Shown piece after piece: positions 20,930 to 31,895 of a stretch of 34,308 nt of DNA. The notes beneath the pieces are model-generated. The model searched no databases. It worked only from the letters and a program-made list of their open reading frames with translations, and was not told the origin of the DNA. Position numbers and translations under genes: made by a program. Source of the DNA: a virus; the IMG/VR virus record IMGVR_UViG_3300049484_000235, positions 1-34,308 of that record. One strand, written 5' to 3'. The first letter of the stretch is position 1, and each line of letters begins with the position of its first letter.

Positions 20930-22303
20930 TCATGCGCTCACTGCCCATACATAGACCTCCCGTCCGTTGGTCGATGCCCAGTTCTTCTGTTCCCCATCGA
21001 GGACAATCTTGATCTTGCCCTCTTGGAAGAGCTGGTTCATGGCCTGTGTCAGTTCCTTGGCATTGGTCCAACGGATCGTCGTAAGAACCTCACGACGATT
21101 CACCCTCGTCCCGTCCCTGATCTTTGCCTCGGCCAGACGCAGATGCCTGTGGTATTCAGAACCGCCCACGGCGTCGAGTGCTTCCCACGAGCGCCGATAG
21201 GTAGCGTTGAGGATCGTGAGGGATTCCTCGAAGTCACTGAGGGTAATGATGTTTCCCTCTTCGTAGCGATTGCACCGGATCAGCATTGCCAGTTTCAGCA
21301 ACGTGTTGTCCATCCGGTACAGGAGCTTGGACTTCTCCCCTCCCCCGATGAGGGTTTTTCGGAACTCGTGGTACCATTGCTTGTAAACCTCCAGAGCGCT
21401 CGGCTCAAACTCAAAGCATCCCCTGTGATGCGACGCAATCCATGCCAGCCGCTCACAAAGCTCCTTCGTTGTGGGGGCTCCCTCGACAGGGGCTGGAATG
21501 GGGAACTCTCTGCTCGACATGGGCTCGTACACGATGATGACGCGGGACATGAAGCCCTGACCAAAGGCCGCATCATTGATCGACATCTGGAGTCCATCTT
21601 CGGTCGTTCCCCCAAGGAATGAAACGTAGCTGTCCCGAAGGGTTATAGTTCCGTGGGCCATCGAGTTGTATTCCCAGATGTCGTGGCAATCATAGATGTC
21701 CATGAGAAGACCGATAAGCCCCTCGTTGTATTTCTGCTTGCCAAGGAATGTTTCCAGCTCGGGTACGATCACGCTCACCTGAGACCCATGTTCGACGGTC
21801 ACGATGCGGGAACCATTCTGGACGCTGGTCTGCTTGGGCTTCATCAGTTCCAGCAGTTTCTCGGGTGTCGCCTTGTTTTGAATCACGCGAGGCGTCTTCA
21901 TCTCGCGGATGAGAGGGCTCTGGATCTCGTCGGGAAACTCCCGAAGGATCTTGCCAGTGAGCGAGGCAATCGTGGTCTTCCCGCAGATGCGCGGAGGTGC
22001 CACCATGATGACGTAGAGGTTTCCGAAGAGGGGCTTGGGAAACCACTTCAACCATACGTCACGCCGAACAACCGAGGAAAGAAGATAGATAGCGTTCCAG
22101 CACGAGAACGAGGTAGGGGTCTCCATGCCACGGGTGGCATACACGAAGTCACGGATGAATCCTCCCTTCCTCGGAAGGTGGATATCCCAAGGGTCGGGAT
22201 TCCACGACGGGGGACCATCGTTCTCATCAAGGAGACAGGGGATCCAGCTTTGCCCAGCATTTTCCACAGGTGATGACGATGGGGAAGACCGCGTTGTGGC
22301 CAT
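20930..22303 (-). CDS. DUF3987-like replicative helicase / ATPase
   Basis: 457 residues; ATG 22303 lies inside the 3' end of the polymerase gene but is preceded by AAAGGGAG. A P-loop (VAPPRICGKTT, residues 101-111) and a Walker-B-like strand (VSVIVPELETFL, 177-186) mark a nucleotide-binding core. The sequence SYVSFLGGTTEDGLQM and then FGQGFMSRVIIVYEP resembles the sensor region of DUF3987-type phage helicases. C-terminal residues ~390-455 look like a winged helix that could bind DNA. Coming straight after the polymerase, it probably unwinds template during replication. No primase is visible in the window, so priming must be supplied elsewhere. Confidence 0.65.
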   Translation of the reverse strand: MATTRSSPSSSPVENAGQSWIPCLLDENDGPPSWNPDPWDIHLPRKGGFIRDFVYATRGMETPTSFSCWNAIYLLSSVVRRDVWLKWFPKPLFGNLYVIMVAPPRICGKTTIASLTGKILREFPDEIQSPLIREMKTPRVIQNKATPEKLLELMKPKQTSVQNGSRIVTVEHGSQVSVIVPELETFLGKQKYNEGLIGLLMDIYDCHDIWEYNSMAHGTITLRDSYVSFLGGTTEDGLQMSINDAAFGQGFMSRVIIVYEPMSSREFPIPAPVEGAPTTKELCERLAWIASHHRGCFEFEPSALEVYKQWYHEFRKTLIGGGEKSKLLYRMDNTLLKLAMLIRCNRYEEGNIITLSDFEESLTILNATYRRSWEALDAVGGSEYHRHLRLAEAKIRDGTRVNRREVLTTIRWTNAKELTQAMNQLFQEGKIKIVLDGEQKNWASTNGREVYVWAVSA

Positions 22304-24992
22304 TGATTTTGAACTCCCTTTCCATCAGCGGCCTGACAATGCTGGCCACTTCCAACTGAGCGCCATCGTTCACTTCGAAGATAAGCTGATCGTGAACCTG
22401 ACAGATGATGGGAATCCCTTCTTCATAGATCCTGATGGTGGCCGTGTTGATGATATCGGCGGCTGTCCCCTGAATCGGTGTGTTCAATCCCTCCTTCAAG
22501 ATGTCGTTCTGGTTTCCGAAAAAGGTTCTCACCCTTCCGAATGCGTTTGAAATCCTACGCTTCTCAAGAACTTCGGATCGAGTTCTTTCATACCATTGCA
22601 TGTAATCAGGATGAAGTCGGCGATATGTTTCGTCGACTTGTCGGAAGCGTCCGAGCGTGAGACCCGAATCAGGAACTTCGGCCAGCACTCGCTCGAAGAT
22701 GCCCTCCACACTTCCACCGTAGTTCCGTCCGAATATGTATATCTTCGCCGCCTTTCGGAAGGCTTTCCACTTGGGATGATCCGGCCCGATGCCGAAGAGC
22801 GCTTTCGTGTTTTCGTCATGGATGTTGAGTCCCTTCTCAAACATGGAGAGCATCAAGCGATCATTGCTGATATAAGCAAGAACGCGAAGCTCAAGGTTGG
22901 AGTAATCTGCCGAGAGAAGAACGTTTCCCTCGTCAGCCGTGAACACTACGCGGGCCGATTCCGGTTGGTTCTGGAGGTTCGGTTTCTTGCACGAGAGCCG
23001 CCCGGTGGTTGTTCCATGAATGAGGAACTGGGGATGGACCCTTCCATCGTCTGCGATGGGGAACTTCGTGTAGGTGCTGAGGAGCTTGTCGATCCCGTTG
23101 TACTCACGCAACTTCGAGACGAACTCGGTGCCCCTCTTGAGATCCTCGCGCTCAGCAAGATGCTCAGGAGTTGGTCTTCGGAACCTGTCAATGAGAGCGA
23201 TACGATTACTCGATTCGCGCACCAAGGACAGCAGAGTGTCATCTGCGACCGAGGCCCCTCGTGTGGCCGTTCCCTTTCTTCGTGCTTGAGGGAAGAGGGG
23301 TCGAACGGTTCGGACTCCTCGCAGTCGCTGGAGTTCTCTGTAGACCTTGGTGTTGGTGCGTCCCACCCGCTTGGCGATCTCCTCCTCCGCTGTATCAAGA
23401 CGACGATTTGAAAGACCAAATACGCAAAACCTAAGATCGTCATCAGAGCTAAGACTGACAGCATCAGATCCGAGAATCTCATGGCACTCAGCACCAAGCG
23501 CCTCCTTCTGCGTTTCCAGCTCCTTCTTCCACTGCTCCACCCGATAGGGGGACACCTTCATCCCCCTCTTCTCCATCTCCATGATGGGCCTGATCATCTT
23601 CATGGATATGTTGTAGTAGGAATCCTTTGCCCCCGAATCTTCCAGATCCTTGAGCAATCCCGGAAGCACTTGGAGCAGGACCACCGAGTCCCTCGCATTG
23701 TAGGTGAACACAGTTTCGGGAGGCATCAGGTCCAGTTGCATGTCCCGATTCAGCATCTCTCCCTTCCAGTAGGGCGTCTTCCCGTAGATCGACACGATGA
23801 AGCCGAGATCGTGGGGAAGCTCGGGACTGATAACGTGGTGCATCAGCATCACGTCATGGGTCAGGTTTCCGATTCTGAATCCGAAGTGTTCGAGCCATCC
23901 GATGTCGAACTTGGCGTTCTGGAATACGGTTGGATTCTCTCTGAGAACTGATCGAACGCTCTCTGCAAGGTCTCTGGAGTAAGAGCTATTGCTGGGGTCA
24001 AGAAAGCTGTAGGGTACAACAACTGCCTCAGTTTCTGACCCAGCCAATCCAATACAGAAGATCCGTCCGCTCCCTCCGGGATTCCAGCCAATCGTCTCAA
24101 TATCGACACCAACCGTCTGGCGTCGTTCGGCCCAAGAATGCAGGAGAGAAACTGATCTCTCGGTGAACTCTGAAGATCGTTCAGCAGTTCCCTCGTTATC
24201 CTGAATGCGGATACCGTTCGGGGGATTGTCCCGTTCGGTGTTTCCACTGTGGGTATCGAGATACGGATCTCCTCCGCATTCGTTTGGAAGTCCGTGTTGG
24301 TTGTTATCCTGACTACCCGATCCATAATCTCCCAAGATGAGAAAGATCTCGGCGGGGGGATGATACCCATCTGTTGAAGTTCCGAGTTCCTGAACCTTTC
24401 CAAGGTCTGCTCCCATAACTGGTCGAAGGATATGGGCCGAGGGTCCACCTCCCGAGTAGGCTGAGCCGGTACCTCGGGCGATGGTCTTCTCCTTGGAGTA
24501 GAGGATCGCGGCCGGATGGTAAGTCGGGACAATGGGGATGCTGGATCCACGCTGAACTGGGTTATAGAGGTAAATGGATCCTCTTGCCTTCGAGATCGCC
24601 TCCCTAATACCAAGGGCTTCCGCCGCCGTATTGCCGAGAGTACAGATGACACGGAGTCCACGAGAAGCGACATCCAGTATCTCCGCTTCAAGTCCCGGGC
24701 GGCAACAACGGAGAGCTTCTTCAGCTTCAGGAGTTGAGATCTGGTTAGAGGGAGGTCGGCATGACAATACGTTCGTGACGTGACAACCGGCACGTCGTAT
24801 TCCAGCTGACGCAAGAGCGCGTCCAAGCTCCGAACCTGCGGGCCCAACAAAAGGATGACCCGTTCGTTCTTCTTCTTCACCCGGAGCCTCCCCAATCAGC
24901 ATGATTCGAGGAGAGTCACAGGTGTCAGCCCAGACTCTCCTCTTGTCGCGTAGCGGACATAGCTCGCACTTGGAGATCCCCGTCCTGTTCAT
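22227..24992 (-). CDS. Uracil-DNA glycosylase / DNA polymerase I (family A) fusion
   Basis: 921 residues from ATG 24992, which overlaps the previous stop as ATGA; a longer frame from 25073 has no support. Residues 1-170 form a family 4-like uracil-DNA glycosylase: Fe-S cysteines C9, C12, C78 and C96/C97, motif GEAPGEEEERTGHPFVG (34-50) and PTYHPAAIL (156-164). After a ~110-residue linker comes a 3'-5' exonuclease with D297, E299, D363, Y431 and D435 all present. The polymerase domain has motif A ADYSNLELR (D696, E701), motif B RKAAKIYIFGRNYGG (R746, K750, F754) and motif C VHDQL (H867, D868). All catalytic residues of polymerase and proofreading are intact. It is the replicative polymerase; the glycosylase part may remove or sense uracil. 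SPO1-type phage polymerases have a similar extra N-terminal domain (from memory). Confidence 0.92.
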   Translation of the reverse strand: MNRTGISKCELCPLRDKRRVWADTCDSPRIMLIGEAPGEEEERTGHPFVGPAGSELGRALASAGIRRAGCHVTNVLSCRPPSNQISTPEAEEALRCCRPGLEAEILDVASRGLRVICTLGNTAAEALGIREAISKARGSIYLYNPVQRGSSIPIVPTYHPAAILYSKEKTIARGTGSAYSGGGPSAHILRPVMGADLGKVQELGTSTDGYHPPAEIFLILGDYGSGSQDNNQHGLPNECGGDPYLDTHSGNTERDNPPNGIRIQDNEGTAERSSEFTERSVSLLHSWAERRQTVGVDIETIGWNPGGSGRIFCIGLAGSETEAVVVPYSFLDPSNSSYSRDLAESVRSVLRENPTVFQNAKFDIGWLEHFGFRIGNLTHDVMLMHHVISPELPHDLGFIVSIYGKTPYWKGEMLNRDMQLDLMPPETVFTYNARDSVVLLQVLPGLLKDLEDSGAKDSYYNISMKMIRPIMEMEKRGMKVSPYRVEQWKKELETQKEALGAECHEILGSDAVSLSSDDDLRFCVFGLSNRRLDTAEEEIAKRVGRTNTKVYRELQRLRGVRTVRPLFPQARRKGTATRGASVADDTLLSLVRESSNRIALIDRFRRPTPEHLAEREDLKRGTEFVSKLREYNGIDKLLSTYTKFPIADDGRVHPQFLIHGTTTGRLSCKKPNLQNQPESARVVFTADEGNVLLSADYSNLELRVLAYISNDRLMLSMFEKGLNIHDENTKALFGIGPDHPKWKAFRKAAKIYIFGRNYGGSVEGIFERVLAEVPDSGLTLGRFRQVDETYRRLHPDYMQWYERTRSEVLEKRRISNAFGRVRTFFGNQNDILKEGLNTPIQGTAADIINTATIRIYEEGIPIICQVHDQLIFEVNDGAQLEVASIVRPLMEREFKINGHNAVFPIVITCGKCWAKLDPLSP

Positions 24993-25549
24993 TTCTCCAG
25001 CCTCAGCTTGATGGTCGGATTGATGAGGACGGGCTCCACGAACTCTTCCGAACCCGAGATGAGAACGCCCCACGGAGACTTTGACTTACGGACAAAGCTG
25101 ACGGCCGTAGGAAGACTGGGGGCAAGGACATATGCCGGGGGATTGTTGGGAGGAAGCGGGGGTTCCGGATCTCCCGGGCTCTCAATCCTGTGCCTCAGCT
25201 CGTTACAGGCAAACCTCAGCCAAGGGGTGACGGGATCGGTGGAGACCACCAGCCAAGTGGCCATCGTGAACCACGGCGGATAGGTCTGCCCATCCGAATG
25301 CACCCGGACTCCGTAGCCAAAGTCCCGCAGGGCTTTGACAAACGCGAACATGAGGTCGTTATCCTCCGAGGCGAAGTCGCCGCCGAGAGTAACGTGCTTC
25401 AACGGTGAAGAGCCAGTGAACTCTACGATGCGGCGGACCACCTCAGAGGGCGGTATGGGTGTGCCCTCGCCGAACATCACCCATACCGTGCAGATTCCCT
25501 CTTGGGGGCCACCACGAACGGGAGTGAACGTGATGGCCGCGATGTTCAT
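24989..25549 (-). CDS. Radical-SAM-fold (QueE-like) protein lacking the Fe-S cysteines
   Basis: 186 residues; ATG 25549 overlaps the preceding stop (ATGA). The first 120 residues follow the half-barrel of small radical SAM enzymes such as QueE: an opening strand, a PPSEVVRRIVEF helix, then HVTLGGDFASED (compare the usual TGGEP turn), FVKALRDFGYGVRVHSDGQ and WLVVSTDP. The CxxxCxxC cluster motif is absent; only C20 and one later Cys (in the RFACNELRH region) remain. A radical reaction is therefore unlikely, and the protein may bind a nucleobase or partner instead. The remaining ~65 residues are Pro-rich. It sits immediately upstream of the polymerase. Confidence 0.45.
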   Translation of the reverse strand: MNIAAITFTPVRGGPQEGICTVWVMFGEGTPIPPSEVVRRIVEFTGSSPLKHVTLGGDFASEDNDLMFAFVKALRDFGYGVRVHSDGQTYPPWFTMATWLVVSTDPVTPWLRFACNELRHRIESPGDPEPPLPPNNPPAYVLAPSLPTAVSFVRKSKSPWGVLISGSEEFVEPVLINPTIKLRLEK

Positions 25550-26714: not shown

Positions 26715-27064
26715 TAGATATCCTTTACCTCGAAGCGAATGATCGTCGCATTTGGATCGACCAGTGCTTCGCTCTTCGACTTGGGGGCTCCCTGAAGCGG
26801 GATACCGTATCCCTGCCCCTGACCTTGTGGTACCAGAAGATACCTCCGACGATTGTAGATGATGATGGGGTTGCCCCTGTCGAGGATTGCCCAAAGATCC
26901 TCGTCGATCACGACGAAGGTGAGGGGTGGGATCGAAGTCCCCGCAATGAGGAAGCTCCTCATCAACATCATGTCCAGATAGAACTTGATGTCGTCGTCGT
27001 CAAGGGCTGGTAAACGGGAGCATAAGCTGAGCAGGATCAGGATTGGAAGCAGGAACCTCTTCAT
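26714..27064 (-). CDS. Small exported protein of unknown function
   Basis: 116 residues, ATG 27064 with AAGGAGCTACCGC upstream, starting inside the end of the nuclease gene. Residues 1-21 form a classical export signal: KR, then the hydrophobic FLLPILILLSL, then a polar end before LPALDDDD. There is no clear lipobox. The remainder is beta-rich with an Arg-rich turn (IIIYNRRRYLLVPQGQG). A secreted protein inside a recombination module is odd. It may act in the periplasm, for example on superinfection or the host envelope; nothing in the sequence says which. Confidence 0.65.
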   Translation of the reverse strand: MKRFLLPILILLSLCSRLPALDDDDIKFYLDMMLMRSFLIAGTSIPPLTFVVIDEDLWAILDRGNPIIIYNRRRYLLVPQGQGQGYGIPLQGAPKSKSEALVDPNATIIRFEVKDI

Positions 27065-27965
27065 TGCGGTAGCTCCTTATGGCGCTGGGATCCAGCGCGA
27101 TGAGGCCGTTCTTCTCGGCCCAACTGGTCTTTCGGAATCCCGACGGGATTCCTTTGAGATCCCACTGACGGCACACGCCAGCGTACTCGCACGGTCGATA
27201 GTAGGAGGTACACCAGCTGGTGTTTCTGTCAAAGAGCTGGAGGGGATCATACCCCTTCTCCAAGGCTTGGGTCTTCTGCGAGATCTCGGTGAGCAGACCC
27301 ACCATCATCCTTTCGAACTGAGCAATATCACGACTGGTCCTGAAAATGATGTCACCCCTCGAACAACTAATCTTCGACTGCCTCTGGTACATGATGTCTG
27401 GTATGAGCCCAGCGATGTTCCATTCGGGGTGGAGCTTCCTCGCTCCCCAGATGTACATCGTCGCCTGATCTCCCAAGGCGACGCCGTTCTCGGTGACTTC
27501 CGTCGAGAAGCCCGTGGTCTTGGTCTCATAGATGTAGCTCTCTTCGTGCCCTCGGGGCTGGAGGATGGCGTCGCAACGGAACGTTACGGCAAATCCATTG
27601 GGGAGGGCAACTTCCATGGGCTCCTCAACAGCGAGGATATGGTGAGATATACGATCAGAGCGGCCAAAAGTATCAATCCAACGATCAAGAAGAAGGGGAC
27701 CACGGTTCTCGTCCGCAAGGTACGTCTCGTCATCCTCGTACTGCGACCGCATCTGGGACAGGTTATCAACAAAGATCCGTCTCGCCTCGGTCTCATCACC
27801 TGTTCGATAGAAGGTGGCTTTCGCTTCATGCATGGCTCCCCCGAAGCTCAATGCCTTCGGCGTCTTGTCGGGCTCGATGCCCATGACATACCGTAGGAAG
27901 AACTTCCATCGGCAGTTCTGGTACAGGTTCCAGAAATGGAATCCGGATCTCGTTTCCTCACTCAT
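27000..27965 (-). CDS. Cas4/AddB-type Fe-S PD-(D/E)XK nuclease
   Basis: 321 residues, ATG 27965 after GAGGTAAACG, overlapping the previous gene by 8 bases. The RecB-family nuclease motifs are in order: H46 (GGAMHEAK), D132 (FRCDAIL), E147-x-K149 (YETKTTG) and Q167...Y171 (QATMYIWG). Cysteines C18, C252, C259 and C265 follow the one-plus-three pattern that holds a 4Fe-4S cluster in Cas4 and AddB. It likely resects DNA ends for the neighbouring ATPase and OB-fold-like protein. The C-terminus PAQLMLPF resembles a beta-clamp-binding hexapeptide. The final 65 bases also encode the start of the exported protein. Confidence 0.85.
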   Translation of the reverse strand: MSEETRSGFHFWNLYQNCRWKFFLRYVMGIEPDKTPKALSFGGAMHEAKATFYRTGDETEARRIFVDNLSQMRSQYEDDETYLADENRGPLLLDRWIDTFGRSDRISHHILAVEEPMEVALPNGFAVTFRCDAILQPRGHEESYIYETKTTGFSTEVTENGVALGDQATMYIWGARKLHPEWNIAGLIPDIMYQRQSKISCSRGDIIFRTSRDIAQFERMMVGLLTEISQKTQALEKGYDPLQLFDRNTSWCTSYYRPCEYAGVCRQWDLKGIPSGFRKTSWAEKNGLIALDPSAIRSYRNEEVPASNPDPAQLMLPFTSP

Positions 27966-28188: not shown

Positions 28189-28217
28189 ATTGTACCACAA
28201 AGCGGTTTCAATGTCAA
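28189..28217 (-). promoter_or_regulatory. Sigma70-type promoter, TTGACA-17-TACAAT
   Basis: On the minus strand the -35 box is TTGACA (28212-28217) and the -10 box TACAAT (28189-28194), 17 bases apart and with TGG directly before the -10 (extended -10). The -35 box overlaps the stop codon of the DUF115 gene. It would drive the nuclease-ATPase-polymerase operon. It closely resembles the promoter at 31867. Confidence 0.8.
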
Positions 28218-29350
28218 GGTTTTTTTTCAATGGCTTGGACTTTTATTCCATCGGCTTTCTGGAAAAAAATGTTTTTCTTCGTTCCTTCCTTTGGAGGTTC
28301 CGCGATTTTTGCGGGCGCGGTAAGCGGCATCACTCGGATGACACCCCCTTCCCCCTCTTCCAGCTTCACCCCGAACTCAGCCAGCACCCCATCGTACTTG
28401 GCTTCAATGTCCTTTGGTTCTCCCAGTTCGAGCTTGCCCATCTTCAGGGCAGGAGCCAGCTCTTCTGGCCTGATGTACCCGCTTACCTCCTCGGGCCTGA
28501 TGATGCCACGGCTCACGCTGTACACCGTGGTCGCCTCGGTTCGGGCCAGCAGGAAGAAGTTCTGCTTGTAGATGGCCATCTCTTCCGTGGTCATACAGCC
28601 AGCTCTCGACCTACGCATTGCCGAACGTGTCTGGAGCGGGGGATCAGGCTGTCGGACCCATGCTCCGCCCTCCCAGTTGAACTGGGCGCACCGTGCCCTG
28701 CCATCCACGAATCCGAAGTCCACCCCAGCAATCACCATCGGGGCGCAACCGAGAAGCGTGGCAAGCTCGGCTTGCGTGTTCACCGTGCATCCTGCGTTCA
28801 CCAGACCGAAATCAATGAAGTCGTACATCTTCGGGTACACGTTGTCGAAGAAGTCGTATCCCATCTGCATGGGACGGAAGAAGCGCACCGGCCCCTTCCA
28901 GTTCTTCAGGATCTCGGGCGAGATCGAGGGGTGGGTCACCAGCATGGTCTCCCCCCAATCGTAGCCCGGGGCTCCCATGGCTTTCCATGTGTCACCGTTG
29001 GAGTCGAGGCAACAGATGAAATCCGGATTCCTTCCAGTCGATGCGACGGTCTTGGCGTTGGTCGCCCCGCAGATGATCACGCCCGGGAAATCCTTGATGA
29101 AGGGGAGCATGTCGTCGAGGGAGGGACCGGAGCCCACCACCAGAACCGGGACCATGGGACGCTTGATGATGGACGAAACACAGATGTTCTGGTAGGTGCC
29201 GGTGCCGAAGACCAGATCCTTCTTCAGCTTCTTGGCCATGGCCTTGATATAGGGGCGGTTCTCAACGGCGTAGTTGATCCATGTCGGGAGCCAGTGGGCG
29301 ATGGTGATCTCGTTCTGGCTGATCTTCCTGTCCTTCGTTTCCGATTGCAT
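28214..29350 (-). CDS. DUF115 / MptE-like protein
   Basis: 378 residues starting at ATG 29350, after GAGGGGAGACTG and overlapping the stop of a 40-residue gene by TGATG; the frame is open further upstream but without a start site. Residues 68-80 (VPVLVVGSGPSLDD) and 91-118 (VIICGATNAK, then RNPDFICCLDSN) form the nucleotide-binding core of the MptE-like (6-hydroxymethylpterin diphosphokinase-like, PF01973) family, also found in motility-associated Maf proteins. The C-terminal ~90 residues are Pro/Lys/Glu-rich. Known members transfer pyrophosphate to a pterin or act in glycan pathways. Its substrate here is unknown; the radical SAM gene upstream is a likely partner. Confidence 0.7.
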   Translation of the reverse strand: MQSETKDRKISQNEITIAHWLPTWINYAVENRPYIKAMAKKLKKDLVFGTGTYQNICVSSIIKRPMVPVLVVGSGPSLDDMLPFIKDFPGVIICGATNAKTVASTGRNPDFICCLDSNGDTWKAMGAPGYDWGETMLVTHPSISPEILKNWKGPVRFFRPMQMGYDFFDNVYPKMYDFIDFGLVNAGCTVNTQAELATLLGCAPMVIAGVDFGFVDGRARCAQFNWEGGAWVRQPDPPLQTRSAMRRSRAGCMTTEEMAIYKQNFFLLARTEATTVYSVSRGIIRPEEVSGYIRPEELAPALKMGKLELGEPKDIEAKYDGVLAEFGVKLEEGEGGVIRVMPLTAPAKIAEPPKEGTKKNIFFQKADGIKVQAIEKKP

Positions 29351-29472
29351 CAGTCTCCCCTCTCGTCGAATGGATTCGGCTTGTGATGTCGGCGATAGCT
29401 GATGAGATCGGCTATCGCCTTGGCCAATGGCATCATCACCACGGCTATGCAGAGTATCCACAGGAAGGACAT
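29350..29472 (-). CDS. 40-residue membrane protein between radical SAM and DUF115 genes
   Basis: Found by reading the gap between the two enzymes: ATG 29472 to TGA 29350-29352, 40 residues. The first ~22 residues are one hydrophobic helix (SFLWILCIAVVMMPLAKAI) and the rest a basic, polar tail (ISYRRHHKPNPFDERGD). It overlaps the radical SAM stop by 28 bases and the DUF115 start by TGATG, so all three are translated together. The continuous coupling and sensible translation argue that it is real. It may anchor one of the enzymes at the membrane. Confidence 0.6.
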   Translation of the reverse strand: MSFLWILCIAVVMMPLAKAIADLISYRRHHKPNPFDERGD

Positions 29473-30497
29473 ACGTCGTGATCCGTCTCGTAAAGCATTC
29501 GACACGACGGACATCGGTAGTTCGACGCATTGAACGATGCCCCCTTCCTCTTGAGAACCTTGGAATAGAACTGGTTGTAGTAGTCCTCGTGATAGTAGAT
29601 CGTGTCGGTTCCCAGCTTCTTGTTCCTGAAGTTCAGCACCCCGTCAAAGCCGTCGCCCGTGTACGCGAAGCCGCACCTGTCGCAGGGATAGGGGAACTGG
29701 CCCTTGTTCTGGAGATCACGGAACTTGGTGTAGGGTTCCGAGTTGTACAACTCGATGAGGTTCTCGGTGCGACCCAGCTTGGGCATGGGCCACGCGAACT
29801 CGTTCACCATGTGGGTGTTGTAGTCGCAGGGGATGAGCTGTCCGTCCCAACGGATGGCCATGAACATCTGGTCCATGAACCGACAAGGATGGGTCCGGAC
29901 ACGGGGAGCATCATCGTTGGTAAACATCCGTCCAATGCAAACATAGTCGATGCCATGGTCAAGCCAATACGATATGTACTCTTCTCGTTCGGCATAGTCC
30001 TGACCTCTTTCGCAGAGCTTGGTTGCGATGTCGATCTTGGAGCCCTTCTTCTTCTTCAGCTCCATGAAGCGGGTCACTGTCTCTTCCACGATCTTGCGGT
30101 CGGAGCCCGGGCGGGTCTTCTCAATGCTCGGAGACCTCGTATCGAAGAGTCCGTCAATCGAGAAGATCACCTGATAACAGGTGGAGTCCGGATCGGTGAT
30201 GCGCTGGAACAGCTCTTCGTTCCAGATGTGGGCATTGGTCGTGATGTAGTGGCGGATCTTCTTGCCAATCGTGTACTTGATCATATCGGTGTACTCGGGA
30301 TTGAGGAGCGGCTCACCGATCATCCACGGACAGATCGTGGTCGGAAAATCTATCCTATCCACGATGGACTTGTAGAAATCGAACGACATGTACGAAGCTC
30401 TCTTGTCCTCGTACTGGTTTATGGGGCATCCGAGACATTTCAGGTTGCACTCACCTGAAGACTCGATGATGACCACGCGAGGGATCTTATGAAGCAT
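29445..30497 (-). CDS. Radical SAM enzyme with SPASM-like end and zinc ribbon
   Basis: 350 residues; ATG 30497 after AGGAGGAAAGCCG. The cluster motif is C17-x3-C21-x2-C24 (ECNLKCLGC), followed by MIGEPLLNPE at the usual GGEP place, TTNAH and IFSIDGLFD. The second half has paired cysteines typical of a SPASM or twitch domain (HPCRFMDQMFMAIRWDGQLIPC and PCDRCGF), which would hold extra Fe-S clusters. The C-terminal 25 residues form a zinc ribbon (RCPSC and VCPSC). Such enzymes modify peptides, sugars or cofactors. The substrate is not evident; it is followed by a small membrane protein and DUF115. Confidence 0.85.
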   Translation of the reverse strand: MLHKIPRVVIIESSGECNLKCLGCPINQYEDKRASYMSFDFYKSIVDRIDFPTTICPWMIGEPLLNPEYTDMIKYTIGKKIRHYITTNAHIWNEELFQRITDPDSTCYQVIFSIDGLFDTRSPSIEKTRPGSDRKIVEETVTRFMELKKKKGSKIDIATKLCERGQDYAEREEYISYWLDHGIDYVCIGRMFTNDDAPRVRTHPCRFMDQMFMAIRWDGQLIPCDYNTHMVNEFAWPMPKLGRTENLIELYNSEPYTKFRDLQNKGQFPYPCDRCGFAYTGDGFDGVLNFRNKKLGTDTIYYHEDYYNQFYSKVLKRKGASFNASNYRCPSCRMLYETDHDVCPSCGYSA

Positions 30498-30756
30498 CGG
30501 CTTTCCTCCTGTAGTATTCGGCGATTGATATGGCGTCTGCGAGTTGTCGCATTATGCCCCCAATGGTTGCCTGACTGAGGCGATATCCTTCCATCTTGGA
30601 TAAGCCGATGAACTGTTCCTTCACCTCGCCCAGATGGTCAGCCACCCAGTCTCCTTCTCCCTTGGCAAGATTCGCCCGGCTCATGAACATGTAGGCGTTC
30701 GAGAGCCGGGCGGATATCTTCAGTTCGGGATCACTCGAACGAGATTCGCTTGACAC
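30487..30756 (-). CDS. Small helical protein, 89 residues
   Basis: GTG start at 30756, 26 bases inside the previous gene; the ribosome site is weak, so coupling is likely. The protein is predicted all-helical (LSNAYMFMSRANLAKGEGDW and GIMRQLADAISIAEYYRRK) and ends in 11 bases of overlap with the radical SAM start. No family recognised. It could be an accessory subunit of the enzyme that follows. Confidence 0.55.
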   Translation of the reverse strand: MSSESRSSDPELKISARLSNAYMFMSRANLAKGEGDWVADHLGEVKEQFIGLSKMEGYRLSQATIGGIMRQLADAISIAEYYRRKADAS

Positions 30757-30967
30757 TTTCTATGTGTTCCTGACCGAGGGAGAAGGCGCTGTCCATGTCA
30801 TAGTAGAGGGTGTCCCCCTCCTTCTTGACCTGAACAAAGCGAAGCAGGGTGGCCTTCTTCAGATCCTTGTTCGCAACGGTGATGACCAGAACCTCGGACA
30901 GGTTGGCATTCTCGGGAATATCGAAGGTCTCGAACTCCTTGTCCCCCACGACCGCGATGAGTTTCAC
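30731..30967 (-). CDS. Small protein, 78 residues
   Basis: GTG 30967, four bases after AAGGAGG and overlapping the previous stop by GTGA; a longer reading from 30994 ignores this ribosome site. The residues look like a small alpha/beta protein (KLIAVVGDKEFETFDIPENA, then VLVITVANKDLKKATLLRFV and a YYDMDSAF strand). I do not recognise a family. Confidence 0.6.
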   Translation of the reverse strand: MKLIAVVGDKEFETFDIPENANLSEVLVITVANKDLKKATLLRFVQVKKEGDTLYYDMDSAFSLGQEHIESVKRISFE

Positions 30968-31188
30968 TTGTCCTCCTTGTGGGGGGTGTACCACTTGGAC
31001 TTGGGGAAGGTCTGGAAGATATTGAAGTGGAAGACGAAGAAGGCAATGGTCGTCGACTCACAGCTCCTCTTCATCTTCTTCACTCCCTTGAAGTTTGCCG
31101 TCTTGTTGTACACCACCCGCATGAAAGCGAGGGGGAACGCGACGAACTCCTTGTCGATCCATGCCCTGAACCTGACGTTACGAAACAC
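30964..31188 (-). CDS. Small basic protein, 74 residues, also the 3' part of the transglycosylase frame
   Basis: GTG 31188 with GGGAGG five bases upstream gives 74 residues: basic and aromatic (FRNVRFRAWIDKEFVAFPLA; FFVFHFNIFQTFPKSKW). It lies in the same frame as the lytic transglycosylase ORF, which has no stop before it. The good ribosome site and the 11-base overlap with the 59-residue gene before it argue that it is made as a separate protein. Function unknown. Confidence 0.55.
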   Translation of the reverse strand: MFRNVRFRAWIDKEFVAFPLAFMRVVYNKTANFKGVKKMKRSCESTTIAFFVFHFNIFQTFPKSKWYTPHKEDK

Positions 31189-31773
31189 AGTCACCTCCCG
31201 TGATGTCGAAGACGAACCTCTCCCACGAGGGTGTCTTCTGATTTTTCCAGACCGCCTTGAATCGAGGACGGGCAAGTACGGCGGCGAGTCGCTTGCTTTC
31301 CTCGTCATCGAAGACCACGGTAATGAGATCGTCTTCATACCTCCTTGTTTCTGGCATCCAACTGCTCCCTCAAGTTGTTGAAGAATACGGAGAACCGACC
31401 GAGCGTATTCTCTACCTCGTCGAGTGACTCCTCCAGAGTTGTAATAAGAGAGCGCGTCTGATTGGCCATGCTCACGCACGAGACCGTAAAGGTAAGAACT
31501 TCCGTACAGAGCGTTTGCACTTGGGCGAGAACGGAACTGAGGGTGCCATCGGGAGTTGAGTTGGAAGAGTCCGTAGTCGGATGATCCGTCTTCGTATTGG
31601 CGTTGGGCTCTGACATTGAACTGACTCTCTTTCTCGCATACTGCGATTGCCAGAAGCGGGTCACTGTGAAGCGGGTCACTGTGGGCGGCTACCTCGGCCG
31701 CCGTCCAGACCAGATCCACCACCATCGGATCTCGTCCCAGCAGTGCCGCTACCATCAGGATGGTGGCTGTCAT
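30964..31773 (-). CDS. Lytic transglycosylase-like ORF without its own stop codon
   Basis: 269 residues from ATG 31773, which overlaps the stop of a 29-residue membrane peptide (ATGA). Residues ~38-130 form a lysozyme-like transglycosylase (SLT) domain: catalytic E49 in CEKESQFN, GLFQLN at 69-74, and SYYNSG at 109-114. The domain ends near residue 138, after which the frame stays open through ~50 residues that read as out-of-frame shadow (SMTRKASDSPPYL) and then into the 74-residue protein starting at 31188. Either a long fusion is made, or a stop codon has been lost. Two tandem HSDPL units lie just before the domain. Confidence 0.65.
   Translation of the reverse strand: MTATILMVAALLGRDPMVVDLVWTAAEVAAHSDPLHSDPLLAIAVCEKESQFNVRAQRQYEDGSSDYGLFQLNSRWHPQFRSRPSANALYGSSYLYGLVREHGQSDALSYYNSGGVTRRGREYARSVLRILQQLEGAVGCQKQGGMKTISLPWSSMTRKASDSPPYLPVLDSRRSGKIRRHPRGRGSSSTSREVTVFRNVRFRAWIDKEFVAFPLAFMRVVYNKTANFKGVKKMKRSCESTTIAFFVFHFNIFQTFPKSKWYTPHKEDK
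31178..31357 (-). CDS. Small protein nested against the transglycosylase 3' end, 59 residues
   Basis: ATG 31357 with GAGGGAG seven bases upstream, TAA at 31178-31180. The residues read as a real protein: RRYEDDLITVVFDDEESKRL, then LARPRFKAVWKNQKTPSWER and FVFDITGGDC. It uses a different frame from the transglycosylase ORF and occupies the stretch where that ORF looks meaningless. It overlaps the next gene by 11 bases. Function unknown. Confidence 0.65.
   Translation of the reverse strand: MPETRRYEDDLITVVFDDEESKRLAAVLARPRFKAVWKNQKTPSWERFVFDITGGDCVS
31653..31682 (-). repeat. 15-bp perfect tandem duplication inside the transglycosylase ORF
   Basis: GAAGCGGGTCACTGT occurs twice in direct succession on the plus strand (31653-31667 and 31668-31682). 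On the coding strand it adds the five residues HSDPL a second time without changing frame, just before the catalytic domain. Confidence 0.95.
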
Positions 31774-31866: not shown

Positions 31867-31895
31867 ATCGTACCACGTTTCGGCTTTTTTGTCAA
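31867..31895 (-). promoter_or_regulatory. Sigma70-type promoter, TTGACA-17-TACGAT
   Basis: Minus strand: -35 TTGACA (31890-31895), 17-base spacer with an A-run, -10 TACGAT (31867-31872) preceded by TGG. It shares CCTTGACA and CGTGGTAC-like or TTGTGGTAC-like ends with the promoter at 28189. The first ATG lies 7 bases past the -10, so the message may be leaderless. Confidence 0.7.

Follow-up and report, generated by a model that had tools for sequence, protein, structure and literature searches.

The closest described relatives of the locus treated here are the Maf flagellin glycosyltransferases, whose central domain is pfam01973 and is similar to the sialyltransferase Cst-II (PMC11339370), and, among phage-borne systems, epaA-epaB, a sugar-modifying prophage gene pair in Acinetobacter (PMC12053666). 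Virion glycosylation in phages is little explored, and the Pfam name of PF01973 would lead annotators to call the phage members of this family pterin pyrophosphokinases. As far as the literature could be searched, no described pair connects a phage radical SAM enzyme with DUF115, MptE or virion modification, and no described case of a radical SAM enzyme paired with a Maf-type transferase was found.

The window, i.e. the whole stretch of DNA that was analysed, is an IMG/VR virus record of 34,308 bases. Genes for head and tail proteins lie on its plus strand. The minus strand carries a radical SAM enzyme and a DUF115 (PF01973) protein next to each other, and its further genes are those for an exonuclease, a Sak4-like protein, a DNA polymerase of family A and a primase (Table 1). 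An earlier note on this DNA had described a coupled trio of a radical SAM/SPASM enzyme, a 40-residue membrane protein and a DUF115/MptE-like protein. The frames, both enzymes and their families were confirmed at these positions, with the 40-residue frame as a possible gene only.

Table 1. Positions of the features discussed in the text; coordinates refer to the window unless a locus is given.
Feature	Coordinates	Strand	Profile match or remark
Family A DNA polymerase with N-terminal uracil-DNA glycosylase domain	22227-25073	-	PF03167
PD-(D/E)XK exonuclease	27000..27965	-	PF12705
Second promoter, near-identical, TTGACA-N14-TGGTACAAT	28189..28217	-	overlaps DUF115 stop codon
DUF115 protein, 378 aa	29350-28214	-	PF01973 83 bits
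Possible 40-aa single-pass membrane protein	29472-29350	-	open frame, one hydrophobic stretch
Radical SAM enzyme, 350 aa	30497-29445	-	PF04055 38 bits, PF13186 32 bits
89-aa ORF, overlaps radical SAM start	30487..30756	-	no assigned function
87-aa ORF, start possibly further in	30731..30994	-	no assigned function
ORF with SLT lysozyme/transglycosylase domain	30964..31773	-	PF01464 28.7 bits, over cut-off
Extended -10 promoter TTGACA-N14-TGGTACGAT	31867..31895	-	upstream of the unit ending with the radical SAM/DUF115 pair
~88-aa protein	L110:6156-6419, L109:6962-7237, L106:4507-4761		

The DUF115 gene starts with ATG behind its own Shine-Dalgarno sequence (GAGGGGAG), and the motif GSGPSLDD occupies residues 73-80 of the protein. 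A model built from 12 phage homologs (pLDDT 76) showed its highest similarity to Maf (5MU5) with a Z of 21.6 over 241 residues, followed by the M. jannaschii MptE/HPPK (8SD5) as second-best fold match with a Z of 14.0; for the sialyltransferase CstII a Z of 10.6 was determined. 5MU5 was also the only significant match of the protein in the PDB by sequence (phmmer, E 2.4e-11). The alignment of the model to 5MU5 is confined to residues 237-514, and the N-terminal Rossmann-like domain as well as the C-terminal domain of Maf are missing from the 378-aa protein. Since these outer domains are lacking, we do not claim that the protein is a Maf, only that it works like one. The protein had been described as either pyrophosphokinase-like or glycan-associated; with Maf as the nearest fold, the glycan side of this description is strengthened and a pyrophosphokinase becomes less likely, so that a putative Maf-like transferase is the better reading of the model.

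Other phage DUF115 proteins are about 25% identical overall and 27-38% in the core. Phage homologs that are alignable over most of their length adjoin genes for CMP-sugar synthetase, PseB/PseC-like or NeuB-like proteins (loci L015, L017-L020 and L023-L025, gene names read from the sequence and not from profile hits). In these metagenomic phages, the nonulosonic-acid-type genes beside DUF115 often adjoin terminase and portal genes. None of the three phage DUF115 proteins scanned matched a family of PHROGs v4. Since the DUF115 proteins of the phages with the radical SAM enzyme diverge strongly and do not form a supported monophyletic group, one shared substrate for them is not assured.

The radical SAM gene starts with ATG behind a strong Shine-Dalgarno sequence (AGGAGG) and overlaps the upstream 89-aa ORF by 11 nt. 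The SAM-cluster motif CX3CX2C (C17, C21, C24) is invariant in nine sequences, the PF04055 match lies over the cut-off, and the fold matches of the model are radical SAM enzymes, which fits membership in this superfamily. Four auxiliary cysteines, namely C205, C224, C272 and C275 (C-X18-C ... C-X2-C), are invariant as well. Since this gives seven invariant cysteines in total, the pattern fits an enzyme of the twitch type with one predicted auxiliary [4Fe-4S] cluster. The extra Fe-S cysteines of the first description are thus present, although in a twitch pattern: a full SPASM enzyme would comprise seven auxiliary cysteines including CX2CX5CX3C, and was rejected despite the PF13186 match, as only four are conserved. 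The zinc ribbon reported before was likewise found (CPSC-X11-CPSC at the C-terminus), but in the window copy only, as it is absent from all relatives aligned. An assignment as prokaryotic viperin (pVip) was rejected with 20.2 bits for NF038283 at a cut-off of 180 and 27 bits for the PADLOC pVip model.

Together with the window, 14 other IMG/VR contigs make up the radical SAM family, at identities of 41-46%. They were recovered by scanning a fixed-spacing motif pattern over IMG/VR, which gave the 45%-identical homolog L053, and by alignments starting from L053, which gave the further members. Single-protein searches found nothing with the radical SAM enzyme in the phage collection, viral contigs or genome contigs, and nothing with the DUF115 protein in the phage collection or viral contigs; at E<=10 the phage collection contained generic radical SAM matches only and no DUF115. 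The aligned members are characterised by the signatures CxLxCxxC, GEP, CERGQD(W/Y), C-X18-C, C-X2-C and YTGxG, and also by DxYNxxxS. The best cellular match in about 790 sampled Pseudomonadota and Spirochaetota genomes amounted to ~100 bits, compared to >400 bits that phage members reached with a profile of this kind. Since the sampled cellular genomes give only this low score, the enzyme looks like a phage family, as judged from the sequences compared.

By a PDB sequence search, the closest solved relative of the radical SAM enzyme is BtrN (E 6e-5), a twitch-type dehydrogenase of aminocyclitols. The AlphaFold model (pLDDT 66.8, pTM 0.70) showed structural Z values of 11.8 for SuiB, 11.4 for DesII, 10.7 for both SkfB and BlsE and 9.6 for BtrN, and does not tell peptide-acting from sugar-acting enzymes. 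Distant cellular relatives sit in glycan clusters (L102, L103). In a Spirochaetia genome (L092), a distant relative directly follows a PEP-mutase/nucleotidyltransferase-like gene of the phosphonate type, as read from the sequence.

No small ORF common to the surroundings of the radical SAM gene in all phage groups was found, as would be expected for the precursor gene of a RiPP maturase. A protein of ~88 aa lies near or beside the radical SAM gene in two otherwise different groups, that of contig G835 and the terminase-portal type, and is possibly a third component or a transferred passenger. Second, different radical SAM genes occur near the family gene in contigs G025 and G026 (L081:7184-8524, L082:11074-12117), and that of G025 scored 57 bits with the PADLOC viperin model. 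Four radical SAM genes are clustered near baseplate genes in the Campylobacter phage F379 (L031).

The third member of the proposed trio fared less well. The 40-codon ORF overlaps the end of the radical SAM gene by 28 nt and has one base in common with the start of the DUF115 gene. The frame is open and has a hydrophobic stretch, but it has no Shine-Dalgarno sequence and is not conserved: no counterpart was found at the same place in the relatives, and profile searches gave no family match. Its codon score of 0.06-0.09 bits/codon compares to 0.27 +/- 0.21 for real genes and -0.27 +/- 0.18 off-frame. The score thus lies in between, and the ORF may be a gene, which we list as putative. As a conserved component the peptide was rejected, since it is absent in the relatives; a 51-aa membrane ORF of G026 is unrelated and located elsewhere.

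A connection of the two enzymes is supported by their co-occurrence. Seven contigs >30 kb carry the radical SAM gene (the window, G012, G015, G025, G026, G834 and G835), and six of them carry PF01973 (all except G012), which was detected by one uniform search in G015, G025, G026, G834 and G835. In G012, a protein of 206 aa matches PF01973 over nearly the full length but weakly (E 0.0015), which this search missed. The radical SAM contigs of 23 kb or less showed no PF01973, which is uninformative at such length. None of the 24 control viral records carried PF01973, neither the 13 polymerase-related records nor the 11 phages with an unrelated radical SAM enzyme. With the window left out and G012 counted as negative, Fisher's test gave p=4e-5 (5/6 vs 0/24) and, against the 14 controls >30 kb, p=4e-4 (5/6 vs 0/14), values which overstate independence, as the radical SAM contigs represent only a few phage groups. 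G834 and G835 were recovered after the hypothesis had been set, and both carry PF01973. This supports the claim that the enzymes belong together and makes a modification pathway the natural reading. The association of the radical SAM enzyme with DUF115 in phages is real and not random.

The radical SAM enzymes of G834, which belongs to the terminase-radical SAM-portal type, and of G835, a contig of the window type, share 74% identity, although the two contigs represent different phage groups; a separate PF01973 gene is present in each. Based on this identity across groups and the separate PF01973 genes, the radical SAM gene has moved between phages that carry a DUF115 partner.

The gene order showed a different picture. 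Only in the window are the two genes adjacent; in the relatives the distance between them is about 2 to 21 kb. In all four window-type viruses with a DUF115 gene (the window, G025, G026 and G835), this gene lies upstream of the exonuclease gene, from which only one or two small genes separate it. The radical SAM gene varies in position: in the window it immediately precedes DUF115, in G026 and G835 it stands between the exonuclease and Sak4 genes, in G025 it is found among virion genes, and in G015, G834 and their short relatives between terminase and portal. Co-occurrence is therefore the conserved feature, and adjacency as well as the 40-aa ORF are peculiarities of the window genome. The coupled unit of the earlier note, which had itself named unlinked enzymes in relatives as evidence against its reading, is accordingly not obligatory: the neighbourhoods in the relatives count as such evidence with respect to adjacency, but not with respect to co-occurrence. 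The former pyrophosphokinase-like, coupled trio is reinterpreted here as a twitch radical SAM enzyme and a Maf-like transferase, which co-occur and are not always linked.

The pattern TTGACA-N14-TGGTACRAT of the two promoters has two matches in the window compared to 0.03 expected, and none of 100 shuffles contained two matches. The second promoter is likely to drive the replication unit of exonuclease, Sak4 and polymerase. The first ORF after the other promoter contains the SLT domain in its first ~120 residues; its 3' part overlaps other ORFs, so that its true end is uncertain. The polymerase is present as two separate ORFs in G026 and G835, and in G026 the pieces flank a 191-aa ORF.

The virus vir526 (BK063670) is related to the window and mostly syntenic; the polymerases share 32% identity over 97%, and the kinship extends to capsid, primase, exonuclease and Sak4. 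The annotated host of vir526 (L002) is Methanomicrobiales. Among the relatives of vir526, murein transglycosylase genes are present in the window and in G026, and sigma-70-type promoters in the window. With its SLT gene of the murein type and its two promoters, which resemble those of sigma-70, the window suggests a bacterial host for the virus. An archaeal host, as hinted by the annotation of vir526, is not supported, as the same features point to bacteria. Neither enzyme was found in the 13 polymerase-related records, i.e. vir526, a Manatee Spring phage and 11 IMG/VR contigs recovered via their polymerases, and therefore the pair is accessory.

Since both genes are retained in related viruses, also at a great distance from each other, we tentatively favour a phage-encoded two-enzyme decoration pathway, in which a sugar-like group is made or altered and is attached to a protein, and would give this reading a little less than an even chance. 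We infer the transferase activity, the donor, the acceptor, and the radical SAM reaction with its order relative to the transfer as follows. DUF115, as a stand-alone Maf core domain, would transfer an activated sugar to an acceptor protein in the cytoplasm. The donor would most likely be a CMP-activated nonulosonic acid or a similar compound from the host pool; such a host-supplied donor is required, since the window contains no recognised nucleotide-sugar biosynthesis gene. The acceptor would most likely be a structural protein of the virion and less likely a surface protein of the host; a virion target is suggested by the position of the radical SAM gene among head or virion genes in other phages. 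The twitch enzyme would use a 5'-deoxyadenosyl radical and its one auxiliary Fe-S cluster to oxidise, epimerise or otherwise change the sugar, or a precursor of it, and the group that is attached would thereby be unlike the host's own. For the radical SAM substrate we lean to the sugar side, since BtrN is the best sequence relative and the distant cellular relatives stand in glycan clusters. Several points count against this pathway: the window lacks recognised nucleotide-sugar genes, the radical SAM model fits peptide- and sugar-acting enzymes alike, the DUF115 partners are too divergent for one substrate to be assured, most phage DUF115 genes in nonulosonate clusters occur without this radical SAM enzyme, and the radical SAM contigs, coming from few phage groups, are not fully independent. 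In its fullest form, the proposal would be an undescribed, horizontally exchanged phage system, in which the twitch enzyme produces a modified sugar that is new, or else acts on the acceptor residue, and the stand-alone Maf-like core attaches the sugar to a virion protein; this we consider possible and rather doubtful.

In a protein-first variant, the radical SAM enzyme would modify an amino-acid side chain in a protein of the phage, be it from the virion or not, and DUF115 would then glycosylate this protein or, without being a transferase, recognise it. SuiB, SkfB and anSME-type enzymes modify amino-acid side chains, and the structural neighbours of the model include such peptide-modifying enzymes (SuiB, SkfB) at equal or higher Z. 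The location of the radical SAM gene inside the head-gene block in several phages and the missing nucleotide-sugar genes of the window would agree with this, whereas the closest solved sequence relative, BtrN, is a small-molecule enzyme and, unlike for a RiPP precursor, no small ORF is conserved beside the radical SAM gene across all groups. Altogether, this variant is unlikely. A route to a pterin- or nucleotide-like compound, such as a hypermodified base or a cofactor, with DUF115 as a pyrophosphokinase of the MptE type, is improbable, since Maf is the much stronger match (Z of 21.6 compared to 14.0) and the sole significant one by PDB sequence search, and since the SLT gene and the two promoters point to a bacterial host. 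In addition, no pterin or deazaguanine genes were noticed in an unsystematic look at the radical SAM contigs. In line with such a route would be that phage radical SAM enzymes such as QueE have 7-deazaguanine precursors derived from pterins as substrates, that PF01973 takes its name from MptE, that the M. jannaschii enzyme is the second-best fold, and that the related vir526 is annotated with a methanogen host.

To our knowledge, Maf enzymes have protein acceptors and do not act on polysaccharides, which argues against a masking of the cell surface, i.e. that the pair alters the glycan of the infected host cell and, for example, blocks further infection. The radical SAM gene among late head genes in other phages speaks against it as well. 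Prophage pairs that change the nonulosonic acid of the host surface are known from epaA-epaB (PMC12053666), and in the window the pair belongs to an operon of the early region, at a distance from the structural genes; nevertheless, surface masking is considered hardly probable. Finally, the two could be unrelated auxiliary genes that became neighbours in the window by accident, which would explain why they are adjacent in the window only, why their order is shuffled in relatives and why vir526 and similar related viruses lack both. Compared to this, the co-occurrence in 6/7 contigs (7/7 with the weak match) against 0/24 controls, including the prospective 2/2, makes mere chance very improbable.

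In the fullest form of the proposal, the phage would bear a glycan not found in its host. The pair also indicates what the PF01973 proteins of phages may do. As the two-gene association is common to several phage groups, it is directly testable.

In comparison with known systems, MptE, the archaeal 6-hydroxymethylpterin diphosphokinase (8SD5), shares the Pfam family and the overall fold (Z of 14.0) with the DUF115 protein, but the match is weaker than that to Maf, and the window belongs to a phage whose promoters are of the bacterial type and which encodes a murein transglycosylase. The twitch enzymes BtrN and SpeY, and structurally BlsE and DesII, have in common with the radical SAM enzyme the motif CX3CX2C, one auxiliary cluster by cysteine pattern and a length of about 330 aa, while the phage family has signatures of its own (CERGQD, YTGxG, DxYNxxxS) and the window copy an extra zinc ribbon. 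The phage nonulosonate clusters (L015, L017-L020, L023-L025) contain a homologous DUF115 that is alignable over most of its length, but differ in having their own CMP-sugar or Pse/Leg-type genes and in lacking this radical SAM family; G018 (L023) and G021 (L024) showed distant radical SAM matches only. With epaA-epaB (PMC12053666) the locus would share the principle that two genes carried by a phage alter a nonulosonic acid, whereas the epaA-epaB pair consists of a cytidylyltransferase/aldo-keto reductase and an oxidoreductase instead of a radical SAM enzyme and a Maf-like protein, and its target is the host capsule. The closest resemblance is to the Maf flagellin glycosyltransferases (5MU5, Magnetospirillum), with the PF01973 core, a GSGPSLDD-type motif, a fold Z of 21.6 and the location of phage relatives beside nonulosonate genes. 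Compared to Maf with about 630-700 aa, the DUF115 protein comprises 378 aa without the N- and C-terminal domains, and it is phage-borne and partnered with a radical SAM enzyme.
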